Part shown: one piece after another, positions 32,773-39,994 of the stretch
Layout of the letters: each line of letters opens with the position of its first letter
How positions within the stretch are numbered: position 1 is the first letter of the stretch
Source: Candidatus Bathyarchaeota archaeon
GTDB lineage: Archaea; Thermoproteota; Bathyarchaeia; Bathyarchaeales; SOJC01
Length of the DNA: 46,441 bases
Assembly (NCBI GenBank): GCA_029882535.1
Contig: JAOUKM010000011.1
Coordinates: 1 to 46,441 of the forward strand
Direction: 5' to 3'
Translations under genes and position numbers: made by a program
The notes under the pieces: model-generated
What the model was told of the DNA's origin: nothing
Database searches by the model: none
What the model saw: the letters and a program-made list of their open reading frames with translations, nothing else

Positions 32773-35073
32773 TCAGAACAAATCGAGTTTTGTGAGCTGA
32801 AAACTCCTGACCGAATCGTGAATATCTCTGGTTGAATAGCCGAAAGGACTTAGGATGTTTGAAGCTGCTGAGTACAGGAGCAAAAGGTATTTTCTAACAT
32901 CAGAATTAGTCTTAGCTTCAATCAAGTCTTCTGCTTTAACTCTTCTCTCATACCGTTTGTTTTCTGCACTAGTAAAAAGAAACCTAACGCTTTTTCCAGC
33001 AGAAATCTCGACTCCCTCTTTCAAAAGTTGTTCGGCAGCAATCACCTGACTAACCTTCTGCTTGTAATTTTCTACATTCTTAGAGAGACGCTTAGTAATT
33101 ATCAAATCCCAAAAAGAAACCTCTCCTTCTAACAATTTCCTTCGAAACTCTCTAACAACTTTCAAAGCCTCAGGTATTTTCTCCATGAAAGCTTCAGAGT
33201 TATTGGCTGTTGCCAGCACTCTAATCATTTCCATCTGAGCATCATAAACAAACTTCGGCGTATCCCTTCTTCTAATTTCTAACCCTCTAACCTTGATCTT
33301 GCCATCTTCCTTTGCCCCATAATAACGGTTTAACACAGGGACATTTTGATGTCTTTTAGAGGGAAGGAAAACAATCCATTTATAACGACCCTCAAAATTT
33401 AATGGCACTCCAATCTTTTCACTTATTTCTTCACATAAGCTGATGTATTCTTGCGCTGTTGCATCTGTCTTCTTAAGCCATAATGAATCAACAATACCAT
33501 GAATTACAGTGAACCTCTTTCTTTCAGCCATACGAGCAGCTTTCAGGAAAGCCTGTCTGCCAAAAGCGCAAACACCAATGTGCCCGTCAACAGTGCCAAA
33601 CTTGGCATTCCTGTACCCCAAATAGCCAAAACAAGTCACCAAAATCCACTTCAAAGCACCTTGACGCCTATCATAAATTTCCTTTAGCCTAGCATCCTTT
33701 ACTTCTCTCATCAACCTTCTGTAACGTAACCTTTTCCCAAGTGCCAACCTCAAAGCCTTAGGCACAATTCCAACACGTTTTTCACAAATATGGTAACTAA
33801 GCTCAGGAATACGTAGTTTTGAGTCTGAGCAACACTTGCAAAGAACAGTTTCAGCAGATATGTTGTACTTCGCCATCAAGGAAGGATACATAGAAGAAAA
33901 ATCTACTTCACCAACATGGTCATGAATCCCCATTCTAGGCTCGTAAACAAAGCCTCCTCGATCTCCAACTAGAAGCTCATAAGCCGACTTGAAAGCTTCT
34001 GGAATACGCTTATTCCTAGGAATCAAAACATCATCTTTCACAGCCTGATAAAACTGAAGAGACGACATACTAGACCCTATTGAAGAACGAGAAGCTCTAT
34101 GCAATGGCACTCTGCAAGTTCTAGCAATCTCAATTAACCCGTCAAGCCCACTATCCCTTTGAATAAACGAGTTATATTCATCAATGTGAACTCTACCGTA
34201 AAGTCTCCTCGTAGGAGCACGATAATATGTTCTACCATAGGAAAAATAGGTTGTTCCACGTCTACGTTTGGCTATAAGAGGTATATTTTCCCTACTCAAG
34301 ACAAAATTATCCAAAACGTCATTTAGCGATGCTCTTCTAGCAAGATAAGGAAGAACATGTGCATCACCACCTCTAGTGAATAAAATATCTGGATCAAGTC
34401 TCTTAACCACACTAATGAACCGTAGCAGCTTATTTTTCTCGCTGCCAGAATCAATAACTATCTTTTCACCATCTTGAGAAATGACCAACTGCTCTATTGG
34501 ATCGTCAAAGCTGGCTATTTTTCCTTTCTTAGCGATGTCAACATAAATTCTCATAACTTTCAAAGGCGGGATTTCATAATCAACACTCTCCACCGAATCA
34601 AGAAGACGGTATTTCAACCTGTGCCTTTCAACTTTAATTTCAACAAAAGCAAGAGGAAAAATGTCACGATCATAAAGATATGCTTGAGCGCTTTTCAAGT
34701 CACAATTATGCAACTGATAACGCAAGTATCTGCCCGCCTCTAAAACTCTACGAACAAAAAAAGGGACCCTCCTACAATCTTTTAACGCAGCTTCTAAAAC
34801 CTTGGTTTTTTCAGTATCAGTTGGATTGGCATATTTGTAGACGAAACTGCACGACGCTATGGATCTGTTTGCATAGAATCGGGTGAATAATCTCTCTAAA
34901 TCTTCTTTTTTGCCAGAAATGTAGATTTTCGGCTTAAACACATCTACAAGGCATATTCTTTCGCCATTCTCAGTGATTATCCAGATGCTCATTTGTCCAA
35001 ACGCAGAAGGATAAAGGTCTAGTATCCAACCTTTCACACGTTTAAGATCGGTTGCATTGTTTTCTAATTGCAT
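32773..35073 (-). CDS. B-family DNA polymerase homolog with degenerate catalytic motifs (PolB2-like)
   Basis: This 766-residue protein has the full PolB layout. Motif A keeps its Asp391 (EVDFSSMYPSL). Motif B is altered (ALKWILVTCFGYLGYRN, with the usual Asn-Ser replaced). Motif C reads HGIVDSLW: Asp529 is kept but the first Asp of the usual DTD is Ile527. The exonuclease domain looks inactive: Exo I is YVDIAKKG (Asp179 kept, Glu replaced by Ala181) and Exo II reads GGDAHVL. Such decay is known for archaeal PolB2/Dpo2-type enzymes, which have been linked to damage tolerance in Sulfolobales. It overlaps the 91-residue gene upstream by 32 bases; a GTG about 37 bases further in would avoid the overlap. 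Confidence 0.85.
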   Translation of the reverse strand: MQLENNATDLKRVKGWILDLYPSAFGQMSIWIITENGERICLVDVFKPKIYISGKKEDLERLFTRFYANRSIASCSFVYKYANPTDTEKTKVLEAALKDCRRVPFFVRRVLEAGRYLRYQLHNCDLKSAQAYLYDRDIFPLAFVEIKVERHRLKYRLLDSVESVDYEIPPLKVMRIYVDIAKKGKIASFDDPIEQLVISQDGEKIVIDSGSEKNKLLRFISVVKRLDPDILFTRGGDAHVLPYLARRASLNDVLDNFVLSRENIPLIAKRRRGTTYFSYGRTYYRAPTRRLYGRVHIDEYNSFIQRDSGLDGLIEIARTCRVPLHRASRSSIGSSMSSLQFYQAVKDDVLIPRNKRIPEAFKSAYELLVGDRGGFVYEPRMGIHDHVGEVDFSSMYPSLMAKYNISAETVLCKCCSDSKLRIPELSYHICEKRVGIVPKALRLALGKRLRYRRLMREVKDARLKEIYDRRQGALKWILVTCFGYLGYRNAKFGTVDGHIGVCAFGRQAFLKAARMAERKRFTVIHGIVDSLWLKKTDATAQEYISLCEEISEKIGVPLNFEGRYKWIVFLPSKRHQNVPVLNRYYGAKEDGKIKVRGLEIRRRDTPKFVYDAQMEMIRVLATANNSEAFMEKIPEALKVVREFRRKLLEGEVSFWDLIITKRLSKNVENYKQKVSQVIAAEQLLKEGVEISAGKSVRFLFTSAENKRYERRVKAEDLIEAKTNSDVRKYLLLLYSAASNILSPFGYSTRDIHDSVRSFQLTKLDLF

Positions 35074-35317
35074 CTAGCTCTTTCTCTAATCTGTTCAGCA
35101 TTTTCTGTTGGTTTAGAAGGATCGACATGACCATAGATTCGAATACAACAGGACGTGTAGCATTACTTCCTGCTGAAGCATAGTTTCTGCAAGCATCTGT
35201 CATCTGCTCAAAAGCCGCTCTGTCTTCGTTGCGCAAAGCCCTCGTAAATCCACTCCATCTCTGTAATTCTCTGTCCAAGGCCATGCGATAGGATGCTATG
35301 GTTTTTCCCATATTCAT
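35042..35317 (-). CDS. Small helical protein of the polymerase operon
   Basis: This 91-residue, all-helical, charged protein contains KTIASYRMALDRELQRWSGF and NRLEKELDAIRKQCNRS. No domain is recognised. It starts four bases inside the end of the RecA-like gene and ends inside the polymerase gene, so it is part of a tightly packed operon. By position it may be an adaptor between the RecA-like protein and the polymerase (inference). It has no membrane segment. Confidence 0.75.
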   Translation of the reverse strand: MNMGKTIASYRMALDRELQRWSGFTRALRNEDRAAFEQMTDACRNYASAGSNATRPVVFESMVMSILLNQQKMLNRLEKELDAIRKQCNRS

Positions 35318-36033
35318 GCCTCCATAAACTGTGTGAGTGTGAGATTCTCTGAAGGAAAATCGATGCTTCCTAATTTGAAGAAAGGATGTTTTTCCAAAAC
35401 AAACTGTTGACCATGTCTAGAGGGTTTTACTAAGGCTACAACATTTGCACGCCCACAAGCTATGGCTTTAAAAAAAATGTTCCGATCTGATGGATAATGT
35501 GGAAGATAAGTTGCAACTACTATCACATGGTTTTCTTTGGCGAACTTTGAAAGATGAACAGTTAACTGATTGAAAACGTCTCTAGTCTCTCTCTTAGGGA
35601 CGTCTTTATCAAGATACAACTCTGCAATGTCCGATATGACCACAAGTTTCGAGTCATATTTCTCAACTGTAGCCTGCAATTTATCGAGGATTAGAGAAGT
35701 CATTTGATACGCTGTGAACGCTCTCGAAATGAAGATCTTTTCCAAGACGTTTCTAGGATCGAGCTCCTGAATTTGAGCAATATAAGAAACATCGTACAAT
35801 CTGAAAGTGTTACCGCCATCTACAAATACCACGTTTGTTTCTAAGCCTCCAAGCTGGTATGGAAGCTGAGCCCTAACGCAAAGAAGCATTGACAAAGGCA
35901 TGACAGCAGAAGAGCCACGTAGGACGGCAAAGTTACCTAAGGTGAAGCCTGGAAACAAATTATCTATTTTTTCTATGTTGAAAGACAAGCGTAATTGAGA
36001 TGGGATACTCTCTACTAATGTCTTTGTTGACAA
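35314..36033 (-). CDS. RecA/RadA-fold protein lacking a Walker A motif
   Basis: This 239-residue protein has the RecA-core layout: LPGFTLGNFAVLRG-like entry (here FPGFTLGNFAVLRGSS), strand NVVFVDGGNTFRLYDVSYIA, Walker B-like KLVVISDIAELYLD, then HLSKFAKENHVIVVATYLPH, and the ending strands. The P-loop position reads RGSSAVMPLSM with no GK[ST], so ATP hydrolysis is unlikely. It starts at TTG 36033 with a strong AGGAGGT ribosome site. It is the first gene of the operon with the small protein and the polymerase. A non-catalytic RecA-like partner of an error-prone polymerase recalls bacterial ImuA (analogy only). Confidence 0.75.
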   Translation of the reverse strand: MSTKTLVESIPSQLRLSFNIEKIDNLFPGFTLGNFAVLRGSSAVMPLSMLLCVRAQLPYQLGGLETNVVFVDGGNTFRLYDVSYIAQIQELDPRNVLEKIFISRAFTAYQMTSLILDKLQATVEKYDSKLVVISDIAELYLDKDVPKRETRDVFNQLTVHLSKFAKENHVIVVATYLPHYPSDRNIFFKAIACGRANVVALVKPSRHGQQFVLEKHPFFKLGSIDFPSENLTLTQFMEA

Positions 36034-36136
36034 GGTGAACCTCCTTTCTCCTCAGCGTTGGGGTTAGATACAAGGGATTCTGAGGCTCTTAAGGATTAAG
36101 CATTAAGACATTCTAGGAAAGGAGGGACACAGTAGA

Positions 36137-36187
36137 GTGAAAGTAAAAGCGTTAATGAAGCTTAATCTGTCAGAATGTGAAAGTAAA
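36137..36187. promoter_or_regulatory. Two 11-base direct repeats in the divergent promoter region
   Basis: GTGAAAGTAAA occurs at 36137-36147 and again at 36177-36187, exactly 40 bases apart, between the RecA-like/polymerase operon and the DUF72 pair. On the minus strand each copy contains ACTTTC. Both flanking genes start with TTG and strong Shine-Dalgarno sites. The repeats are candidate regulator-binding sites for a shared stress response. Confidence 0.45.
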
Positions 36188-36201
36188 CGAGAGGGTGAAG
36201 A

Positions 36202-37116
36202 TTGACAGAATATCTTATTGGCACTGGTGGGTGGGCTTATTTTAAAATCCCAAACAAATCCTCTTTGAAAGCCTATTCTGAAGTTTTTGATTTTGTTGAA
36301 GTTAATTATACCTTCTATGAATACCCAAGTGTCAAAATGGTTGAAAGATGGCGACGTACAGTGCCTAGCGACTTCACGTTCACTGTGAGGTGCCATCGAG
36401 ATTTAACTCATAGAATTGGTTTGAAACCGGTTGACGAAGCTTACGCTGTTTTCAGTCGAATGATAAGTATATGTAAAATATTAGAAGCTCCTTTCCTTCA
36501 TCTGCTAACACCCGCAAGCTATGTTTTCGACGACGAAAAGATAAGCCAAGTAAAAGACCTCTTCTCGTCAATTGACCTGAAAGGAGTTCGCCTCGCTTGG
36601 GAAATTAGAAGCCAAAAAGAAACAAAACTAGCAAATATAATGAGAGACTTTGAAATAGTCCATTCGATCGATTTATCAAGAGAAAACCCTTCAAGCGAAT
36701 CCGATACCATCTATAGCCGAGTATTTGGTAAAGGAAAACACAACATTTACCAATTTACAGACGATGAACTAAAAAAAATCGATAGAAAAGCAATTGACGC
36801 CTCAGTTAAAATGGCGATCATTACATGGCATGGAGTAAAAATGACTAGCGATGCAGCAAGGTTCAAAAAATACAAAGAAACCGGCAATTTTCTTCCAGTA
36901 ACCGCCTATACCGGCGTTGATTCTGCAAGAGCAGTTCTCAAAGAAGATGCTAGATTTCCCTCAACAAAAGCAGAACTAATTGAGAATCAAGGCTGGAAAG
37001 TGATCGATTTGACAGCTGAAAAGAGAGTTCACTTATCCGAATTGCTTAATAAAATACATGAAAAGACCTACAGTGATGTTAAAGAAGTAACCAAGGAACT
37101 GAAGGCTATCCTATGA
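36202..37116 (+). CDS. DUF72 (YecE-like) TIM-barrel protein, first copy
   Basis: This 304-residue protein has DUF72 features: YLIGTGGWAYFKIP at the start, FDFVEVNYTFYEYPS with the conserved N-x-T-F-Y, DFTFTVRCHRDLTH, and RLAWEIRSQ. It starts at TTG 36202 with GAGGGTGA as ribosome site. The family has a TIM-barrel fold; its biochemical role is not established, but gene-neighbour data often place it near DNA repair or Fe-S genes. It overlaps the second copy by four bases (ATGA), so the two are co-translated and may form a heterodimer. It is divergent from the polymerase operon. Confidence 0.85.
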   Translation: MTEYLIGTGGWAYFKIPNKSSLKAYSEVFDFVEVNYTFYEYPSVKMVERWRRTVPSDFTFTVRCHRDLTHRIGLKPVDEAYAVFSRMISICKILEAPFLHLLTPASYVFDDEKISQVKDLFSSIDLKGVRLAWEIRSQKETKLANIMRDFEIVHSIDLSRENPSSESDTIYSRVFGKGKHNIYQFTDDELKKIDRKAIDASVKMAIITWHGVKMTSDAARFKKYKETGNFLPVTAYTGVDSARAVLKEDARFPSTKAELIENQGWKVIDLTAEKRVHLSELLNKIHEKTYSDVKEVTKELKAIL

Positions 37117-37937
37117 GCATAAACAATATTTTACTAGGCACTTCAGGGTGGAGCTACAAAGAATGGGAGGGAGCTTTCTATAGAAAGGGCGAGAAGAGCA
37201 AGCTTCGAGCATATGCACGAGTTTTTCAAATCGTCGAGATTGACTCTACTTGGTATCGGTATCCTTCAAGAGGAACAGTCATGGGATGGCTGCGCTATTC
37301 ACCTTCAAACTTCATCTTCACCGCAAAGCTTCCTAAACTCATCACTCACGAAAAAAAATTAGGTCTTAAAGACGATGTGAAATCCGACCTAGAAAACTTC
37401 TTAGAGATTATGCAGCCACTTCAATTAAATGGAAAACTCGGATGTCTCCTTATACAACTTCCACCCAGTTACGATTACAACCCTGAAAATTTGGAGGCTT
37501 TCTTTGAAATGCTCTCTCCTCAGTTTAAATTTGCTGTTGAGTTCCGAAACCTTTCTTGGATGAGAAGGGAGACTTGGCAACTGTTGAAGAAACACAATGT
37601 TGCTTATGCAAACGTTGACGAGCCTCTTCTACCCCCAGAGGTTCACATTACAGCAGATTTTGCTTACTTCCGTTGGCATGGAAGAGGAGAAAAGCCGTGG
37701 TTTGACTATCTCTATAAGGAAGAAGAACTCGAGCCTTGGATTCCGAAGGTGTTGGAGACCTCAAGGCAAGTTAAACAAGTTCTTGGCTTCTTCAACAATC
37801 ACTTTCATGGTTATGCCCCTGAAAACTGCTTAAGCTTAATCGAAAAGATTCTCGGACTGACACCACAACAGCAGGAAGCCAAAAAGAGAATAAAGAAAAA
37901 ACAAGTTGGTCTTGCTAGCTTCTTTCAAAATAACTGA
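37113..37937 (+). CDS. DUF72 (YecE-like) TIM-barrel protein, second copy
   Basis: This 274-residue second DUF72 protein is closer to the family norm than its partner. It contains LLGTSGWSYKEWEGAFYRKG, FQIVEIDSTWYRYPSRGTVM, FIFTAKLPKLITHEK, LGCLLIQLPPSYDYNPENLE, FAVEFRNLSWMRRETWQLL, FAYFRWHGRG and a C-terminal NNHFHGYAPENCL. These include the conserved acidic, Trp and His positions of the barrel. The ATG overlaps the stop of the first copy. The tandem arrangement of two diverged copies suggests subfunctional pairing (inference). Confidence 0.88.
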   Translation: MSINNILLGTSGWSYKEWEGAFYRKGEKSKLRAYARVFQIVEIDSTWYRYPSRGTVMGWLRYSPSNFIFTAKLPKLITHEKKLGLKDDVKSDLENFLEIMQPLQLNGKLGCLLIQLPPSYDYNPENLEAFFEMLSPQFKFAVEFRNLSWMRRETWQLLKKHNVAYANVDEPLLPPEVHITADFAYFRWHGRGEKPWFDYLYKEEELEPWIPKVLETSRQVKQVLGFFNNHFHGYAPENCLSLIEKILGLTPQQQEAKKRIKKKQVGLASFFQNN

Positions 37938-38020: not shown

Positions 38021-38878
38021 ATGGTAGTTGTTGGTAAAGTTGACAGTGCAAAGGATTTTCGTCATTTTCTGAAGGAACTTGATGTTAAAGGCGTTGTTTT
38101 TGTGGTAAAACCTAATTGGAGCAATGCCAACACCTTTACTTCAGCTGAGACGCTTGATTGGCTTTTTTCTGCTCTGAAAGGCAGAATCAAAGTGATTGAG
38201 GGTTATACTGCGTGGCGTAATGAGCTTAATACTGGACCCGAACCGCAAGAAGTAATAACTCCGAGTAACGCCAAAGCGAAGTGGCAGTGGATTAAAGAGC
38301 AAGACAAATGGTTTCTAAGGTTCAGCGGTATTGATAAAATCTTGTCAAAATATGACGTTGAATACATAAATGTCACAGAAGAAGTTTGGTCCAATAGAAC
38401 CCTTAACCCTGATGAAGTTAGAGATTTTGTTGACAACAAATACGGGATATTAGTTAGGCAAGAGGTGTACAGTTTTGTGCCTACGAAAGTCTACGAGCTT
38501 AGAGACAGTACTTTTATTAGTCTCAATAACAGCCGCCGAATCCGCGAACATGTATCTCTCTCAACCAAAAACTTGTTTGGCTTAATCCCTGACCCCGCAC
38601 GATATGGAAAATGGCATGGCAAGAACGACAGCTACCTGTCTCGAAGTATTGTAGACATCAACAAAATCTACCGCAGTCTCTTCTCACCATGCTACTGGAT
38701 TAACGAGATGAAAGAATTAGGCGTTTTTGTGGGAAGCAAAAATTCGGTGGAAGCTGATGCAGTCACAGCTAAATTAATGGGTATAGATCCTGGAAAAATT
38801 GATTATTTAAGGAAAGTTGCCAACATCTTCGGTGGATACGACGAAAAAGTTTTGACTAAGATTCCTAAATCGCTTTAA
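38021..38878 (+). CDS. DUF362-domain protein without ferredoxin cysteines
   Basis: This 285-residue protein shows the DUF362 pattern: FVVKPNWSNANTFTSAETLD near the start, RIREHVSLSTKNLFGLIPDP in the middle, SRSIVDINKIYRSLF, and VEADAVTAKLMGIDP near the end. Many DUF362 proteins carry a 4Fe-4S ferredoxin tail, but none is present here. The biochemical role of the family is unknown. It stands alone 83 bases after the DUF72 pair. The start ATG at 38021 lacks a clear Shine-Dalgarno. Confidence 0.78.
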   Translation: MVVVGKVDSAKDFRHFLKELDVKGVVFVVKPNWSNANTFTSAETLDWLFSALKGRIKVIEGYTAWRNELNTGPEPQEVITPSNAKAKWQWIKEQDKWFLRFSGIDKILSKYDVEYINVTEEVWSNRTLNPDEVRDFVDNKYGILVRQEVYSFVPTKVYELRDSTFISLNNSRRIREHVSLSTKNLFGLIPDPARYGKWHGKNDSYLSRSIVDINKIYRSLFSPCYWINEMKELGVFVGSKNSVEADAVTAKLMGIDPGKIDYLRKVANIFGGYDEKVLTKIPKSL

Positions 38879-39661: not shown

Positions 39662-39994
39662 ATGACCCCCGCCACTCTCAACGAACTTACAACAAAATAC
39701 TTCCGCAAAAAAGGCTACAAAATAGAGCGTAATATTACACTTGAAGGTGCCTCTGGCATTCTCCGCAAATTTGGCTTGATAATAACAAAGTCAAAAGAAC
39801 AACGTGTAGTCAAAATACTTAACTGGAAACGCACAGTCGGCGTCAACATAGTCATAAACCTCGACAAAGCATCAGAAGACGTCGGCTTCAAAAAACCCAT
39901 CGTAATATCAGAAATTTTCAGCAGCCACGCAAAAGCCTACGCAAACCGAAAAGGCGTAATCCTTCTAACCAAACGTGAACTAAACACTTACTAG
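39662..39994 (+). CDS. Hypothetical protein, possibly a degenerate nuclease-like fold
   Basis: This 110-residue protein has an Mrr/PD-(D/E)xK-like secondary-structure order. It starts with a helix and strand (LTTKYFRKKGYKIERNITLE), then FGLIITKSKEQRVVKILNWK, and a later strand-helix (PIVISEIFSSHAKAYANRKG) ending VILLTKREL. The acidic residues and ExK motif of active nucleases are not visible (FGLIIT in place of a D-containing strand, VKILNWK in place of ExK). It may bind DNA without cutting; this is a fold guess, not an assignment. Confidence 0.55.
   Translation: MTPATLNELTTKYFRKKGYKIERNITLEGASGILRKFGLIITKSKEQRVVKILNWKRTVGVNIVINLDKASEDVGFKKPIVISEIFSSHAKAYANRKGVILLTKRELNTY

Follow-up and report, generated by a model that had tools for sequence, protein, structure and literature searches.

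A PolB2 mutasome operon of Candidatus Bathyarchaeota and its divergent DUF72 gene pair, a probable lesion-processing accessory

The analyzed window was contig 11 (JAOUKM010000011.1; 46,441 nucleotides) of a 1.73 Mb Candidatus Bathyarchaeota draft genome, and the locus under study, at positions 32773-37937, carries the genes of an archaeal error-prone polymerase complex, the PolB2 mutasome, and two DUF72 genes that run divergently from them. Five open reading frames (ORFs) were confirmed there. The three minus-strand genes encode PolB2, a B-family translesion polymerase of 766 aa (32773..35073; Pfam DNA_pol_B, 1e-41; motifs present in 37 homologues), PPB2 (arCOG07300), a small helical partner (35042..35311), and iRadA, a 239-aa protein with a TTG start (35314..36033; Pfam Rad51, 8e-15; PDB RadA chains, 3e-22). 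The two plus-strand genes, DUF72a (304 aa, TTG start; 36202..37116; Pfam DUF72, 1e-26) and DUF72b (274 aa; 37113..37937; Pfam DUF72, 1e-64), overlap by 4 bases. An initial annotation, made from the letters of the DNA alone, had placed five genes of the PolB, RecA-fold and DUF72 families here, with two overlapping DUF72 genes divergent to the trio; the ORFs and the Pfam and NCBIfam matches agreed with it. Overlaps of 4 and 32 bases within the trio had also been reported, and both exist between the ORFs. The 32-base overlap of PolB2 and PPB2 was kept in several relatives. However, the small-protein ORF as first called (91 aa; 35042-35317, minus strand) probably has the second Met (window position 35311) as its true start, since relatives begin with MGKT or MGRT there; PPB2 would then no longer overlap iRadA, and the 4-base overlap would disappear. 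The gene order was kept over many genera, indicating that the arrangement is not due to chance.

Motif A of PolB2 was intact (EVDFSSMYPS). At the DTD position of motif C the alignment gave residues I527-V-D529 (33487..33495, minus strand), the first Asp being replaced by Ile; motif C read GIVD[SAC] in all 37 aligned homologues and GIVDS in the window, in agreement with the altered catalytic motifs described initially. The ExoI, II and III residues of the exonuclease domain were not conserved in the same alignment, and the Pfam match to this domain was weak (1.5e-4, under the cut-off). The match to the NCBIfam archaeal type B polymerase model reached 4e-108, which was under the curated cut-off of that model. 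A DR loop was found as DRGG at residues 371-374, with DR present in 37/37 homologues; this D(K/R) loop touches PPB2 in published models (PMC11791011). The isoleucine shared by every homologue and the decayed exonuclease residues would fit a catalytically dead PolB2 acting solely as a structural or regulatory factor, the reading favored in 2014 (PMC4104785). However, across the 37 homologues motif A kept its Asp, motif C its second Asp, and motif B, which contains a lysine, was conserved as well. Sulfolobus Dpo2 with a like change (IID) is reported as an active extender polymerase (PMC8764526, PMC11791011), and a dead enzyme is very unlikely.

The N-terminus of PPB2 was MGKTIASYR. Gly2, Thr4 and Arg9 were invariant in 25 of 25 sequences and position 3 was Lys or Arg; an MGRT N-terminal arm with Arg 3/9 has been described for PPB2 (PMC11791011). 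The Rad51 core was matched by iRadA, which lacked both the N-terminal domain and the Walker A lysine, consistent with the initial description of a RecA-fold protein without GK[ST]; this motif was missing from 24/24 relatives. The protein ends in a weak PCNA-interacting peptide (PIP)-like motif, NLTLTQFM (35323..35346, minus strand), with a C-terminal L/M..F-hydrophobic form in most relatives, and motifs of this class have been published (PMC11791011). Apparent iRadA-PPB2 fusions of about 360-375 aa, accompanied by a second iRadA-like gene, were seen in two metagenome-assembled genomes, one from a distant member of Bathyarchaeota and one from Nitrososphaerales; both fusions were near a DUF72 pair.

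When 121 order-level genomes (the window's own and 120 relatives) were searched with the window PolB2, clear full-length relatives were found in several families of the order, and the gene order iRadA-PPB2-PolB2 recurred around them. PPB2 profile matches were present in 43 of the 121 genomes, 39 of them strong and full-length. Co-occurrence of the module genes in related genomes, on which the initial annotation had staked its proposal, was thus not rare. In some relatives a full PolB2 was present twice, or PPB2 in several copies or fragments.

The PolB2 operon was first predicted in 2014 (PMC4104785). In 2025 the mutasome was modeled with AlphaFold as a heteropentamer of PolB2, iRadA and three PPB2, with complexes published for 40 other PolB2-iRadA-PPB2 sets, and an enrichment of DUF72 and SRAP genes near polB2 was noted (PMC11791011). 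According to the summary in that paper, Dpo2 is damage-inducible and needed for mutagenesis. With the Sulfolobales Dpo2 operon the window shares the three subunits and their order, the altered motif C, the inactive RadA, the MG[KR]T arm, the DR loop and the proximity of DUF72 genes to polB2. By sequence and gene context the minus-strand trio is the published PolB2 mutasome, extended here to Bathyarchaeota; complex formation and activity would follow from the Sulfolobales work. The mutasome-like unit of polymerase, helical protein and inactive RecA-fold protein proposed initially was therefore supported by diagnostic residues and gene order, but its core was already known and is not new. The present locus differs in its divergent tandem DUF72a/DUF72b genes, the PIP tail of DUF72b and the GTGAAAGTRAA box conserved in the promoter.

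The bacterial ImuA-ImuB-DnaE2 mutasome, also invoked initially, held up as a functional analogy: both systems join an error-prone polymerase to a RecA-like accessory, and DUF72 genes stand beside imuB-dnaE2 on some plasmids. The polymerase here, however, is an unrelated B-family enzyme, and neither a C-family DnaE2 nor a Y-family-like ImuB was found among the five genes with Pfam and NCBIfam. The close published parallel is Escherichia coli Pol V (UmuD'2C-RecA), in which a RecA-family protein likewise holds the polymerase and the N-terminal arm of a small subunit lies near the active site (PMC11791011); Pol V differs in its Y-family polymerase, its active RecA and the presence of UmuD' where the archaeal system has PPB2.

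A mobile or defense cassette (casposon-like, proviral or anti-phage) in place of housekeeping repair might account for the patchy distribution of PPB2 in the order, and a PADLOC 'homing endonuclease' model did match PolB2. However, that match covered only the end of the 1671-position model and fell on the polymerase region, a scan with the defense library gave no meaningful match, and no integrase or Cas1 was seen among the neighboring ORFs scanned with Pfam. Together with an arrangement conserved across genera, these results leave such a cassette extremely improbable.

Both plus-strand proteins scored well above the Pfam DUF72 (PF01904) cut-off of 25.3 bits, DUF72a with 94.7 bits and DUF72b with 218.8 bits. 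They form a conserved two-paralogue unit of a degenerate DUF72a and a canonical DUF72b. Compared with DUF72b and the solved bacterial members, the DUF72a motifs were altered (VDEP to IDLS and RWHG to RVFG), and an extra small C-terminal domain was present, weakly resembling DUF5785/DUF5789 in Pfam and folding confidently; the mean AlphaFold predicted local distance difference test score (pLDDT) of DUF72a was 93.8. Foldseek matched DUF72b to 1vpq, 1ztv and 1vpy, with a template modeling score of 0.76-0.80 for 1vpq, a DUF72 TIM barrel. Fold neighbors following the DUF72 structures included a barrel of apurinic/apyrimidinic (AP) endonuclease family 2, and TM1631 has been predicted to have an endonuclease IV-like DNA site (PMC3828134). 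Fold and conserved motifs were the same as in the DUF72 members TM1631, EF0366 and YecE; TM1631, however, stops at the barrel, whereas the archaeal DUF72b adds a PIP box and DUF72a is a degenerate paralogue.

DUF72a orthologues, defined as scoring above 400 bits with the DUF72a profile, were found in 28 of the 121 genomes. Strong full-length PPB2 was present in 24 of these 28 compared with 15 of the 93 others (Fisher p = 2e-11, a value that overstates independence because the genomes are related). Of the 24 genomes with both, 20, from several families, had DUF72a no more than 4 kb from iRadA; 19 of the linked cases were divergent, two of them with gaps of 1.7 and 3.9 kb, and one was same-strand. 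One of the 20 had the DUF72 pair beside iRadA-PPB2 with no PolB2, and in another relative, outside the 20, the pair stood beside a 79-residue iRadA remnant. In these two relatives the mutasome appears to be in decay, with the DUF72 pair retained. A third DUF72 subfamily, with DUF72a-profile scores of about 150-255 bits, was spread widely through the order, and none of the cases seen was linked to PolB2.

DUF72b of the window terminates in KKKQVGLASFFQNN, which includes a PIP box of the form QxxLxxFF (QVGLASFF, residues 264-271; 37902..37925, plus strand). The canonical motif was kept in all nine same-family DUF72b copies beside iRadA. In the AlphaFold model the barrel was confident and residues 265-274 had pLDDT below 50, as expected of a flexible tail. 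A PIP-like motif occurred within the last 22 residues of 15 of 18 non-redundant full-length short archaeal DUF72b proteins, compared with 9.7% of other ORFs (p = 4e-13), most of these motifs being degenerate. We infer that DUF72b would bind PCNA through its PIP box. A canonical PIP box in every DUF72b was considered and rejected: of 20 non-redundant short-form clusters just 3 had it, and the relaxed motif was the common form. In long forms of DUF72b (about 395 residues) a 'TLxxF' core followed the barrel and preceded an extra domain; in five of them this domain showed a conserved HDCADWS...FCKH with a look resembling SWIM zinc fingers.

Tails of a similar kind were read in bacteria. Three Firmicutes DUF72 proteins end in PKQLDLF, PKQLDFFNEF and PMQMDLFSE, which resemble bacterial beta-clamp motifs; such a tail was missing from most proteobacterial and other bacterial DUF72 proteins read. 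A survey of clamp-binding peptides in bacteria (PNAS, 2001) reportedly listed DUF72 and may have priority for the bacterial motif. Tails that appear to fit the local clamp in both domains of life give the strongest hint of DUF72 function. DUF72 genes were also found beside imuB-like and dnaE2-like genes on plasmids from two phyla, in two gene orders and once with lexA. On a Desulfosarcina ovata plasmid (NZ_AP021877.1:56000-68000) the order was lexA-DUF72-(Y-family)-(DnaE-type); two Paraburkholderia and one Caballeronia had plasmid-borne imuB-like, error-prone DnaE-like and DUF72 genes together, and imuA was within 5 kb of DUF72 in a third Paraburkholderia. Ku was about 2.5 kb or less from DUF72 in two other plasmid cases. 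No such repair genes were seen in 6 of the 13 plasmid DUF72 neighborhoods examined (each with at least about 4.5 kb of flank); this sample was partly picked as relatives of a positive case and does not estimate a frequency.

The 168 bp separating iRadA from DUF72a (36034..36201) were intergenic here and in most divergently linked relatives, and form a shared divergent promoter region. They held GTGAAAGTAAA twice, 40 bp apart (36137..36147 and 36177..36187, plus strand), both copies corresponding to the relaxed box of module promoters. Of 34 modules, 19 had the relaxed form of GTGAAAGTRAA upstream of iRadA, compared with 0.385 in shuffles, and the box-bearing promoters included modules without an adjoining DUF72. 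The box is best read as a control element of the module itself, putatively common to both operons when they are adjacent, and damage induction may act through it. Sulfolobus Orc1-2 binds an ANTTTC DNA-damage response element (PMC9738581). The box holds ACTTTC on one strand, a short match, and the second Orc1/Cdc6 gene of the window's genome had a similar box upstream. However, this orc-upstream box was found in that genome and one relative and was missing in three other informative relatives, and the orc paralogue (a close copy) was missing in two module-bearing relatives, so that any link of the box to Orc1-2 is weak.

Several points weigh against the DUF72 pair as a lesion-processing accessory. 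PPB2 was lacking from four of the 28 DUF72a genomes and four more had both loci apart; shared ancestry among the genomes also inflates the p-values. Most DUF72b proteins outside the window's family had only the degenerate 'TLxxF' core and an extra C-terminal domain. The box was not kept upstream of DUF72a genes away from iRadA, and a broad damage-box regulon was rejected, as GTGAAAGTRAA occurred at chance frequency outside the module promoter in the thirteen same-family genomes searched. Neither an assigned activity nor a catalytic assay of any DUF72 was found in the literature. The pair could instead be an independent repair or metabolic unit that shares only a promoter region and a neighborhood with the mutasome. 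With curated models of the two paralogues, it was found in many other archaea whose retrieved flanks showed no PolB2 module, and unlinked short DUF72b proteins carried a PIP box as well, so the box was rejected as a marker of PolB2 linkage. Such independence is nevertheless rather unlikely: the two loci stayed close together in most genomes with both, in several families, and the bacterial association with imuB-dnaE2 and lexA, like the clamp motifs in two domains of life, points to DNA damage tolerance. The initial proposal of the DUF72 proteins as further members of the module thus stands in its genomic association and clamp-binding-type tail, and was reduced to that of an optional partner at most, since the pair lives without PolB2 in several relatives.

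We consider with good confidence that the locus as a whole is best explained as a PolB2 mutasome operon with the DUF72 pair as a lesion-processing accessory. PolB2 would carry DNA extension beyond lesions and would not proofread; iRadA and a PPB2 oligomer would hold it, with the N-terminal arm of PPB2 extending to the polymerase active site. In Bathyarchaeota the mutasome may be recruited to PCNA by weak C-terminal motifs of iRadA (NLTLTQFM) or PolB2. DUF72b would ride the same PCNA through its flexible PIP box, meet the same stalled primer or lesion and act there on the damage or on the end of the primer. The AP-endonuclease-type fold neighbors and the endonuclease IV-like site predicted for TM1631 make incision or end cleaning the foremost guess for this reaction. 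DUF72a has degenerated as iRadA has and probably serves DUF72b as a partner or regulator without catalysis of its own, and the conserved box in the shared promoter would induce both operons together. DUF72b probably serves lesion tolerance as an accessory enzyme tethered to the clamp, and the DUF72a-DUF72b operon is probably a lesion-processing accessory.

A wider proposal is offered tentatively, at somewhat less than even chances: that DUF72 is a sliding-clamp-tethered DNA-lesion enzyme that joined error-prone repair settings independently, namely the archaeal PolB2 mutasome with a PIP tail, bacterial ImuB-DnaE2 cassettes, and Firmicutes replication with a QLDLF tail. The archaeal DUF72a and DUF72b would here form a heteromer co-induced with PolB2. 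The PolB2-PPB2-iRadA core and the DUF72 enrichment near polB2 are already known; no description of the conserved DUF72a/b pair as a companion, of its clamp tag, of the promoter box or of DUF72 beside imuB-dnaE2 on bacterial plasmids was found in the literature, most subscription papers lying outside the search. The DUF72 family spans bacteria and archaea, so that clamp-binding-type tails in both, with repeated error-prone polymerase neighbors, provide a specific hypothesis that is cheap to test. Through its QVGLASFF tail, DUF72b suggests for this uncharacterized family a specific role at damaged replication forks that can be put to the test. The known archaeal mutasome now reaches Bathyarchaeota, a large uncultured group, and the conserved promoter box may mark a damage response there.

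Downstream (3') of the DUF72 pair, Pfam identified a DUF362-like gene (38021-38878, plus strand) and an Mrr_cat restriction-endonuclease-like gene (39662-39994, plus strand). The genome also encodes two further B-family polymerases above the Pfam cut-off.

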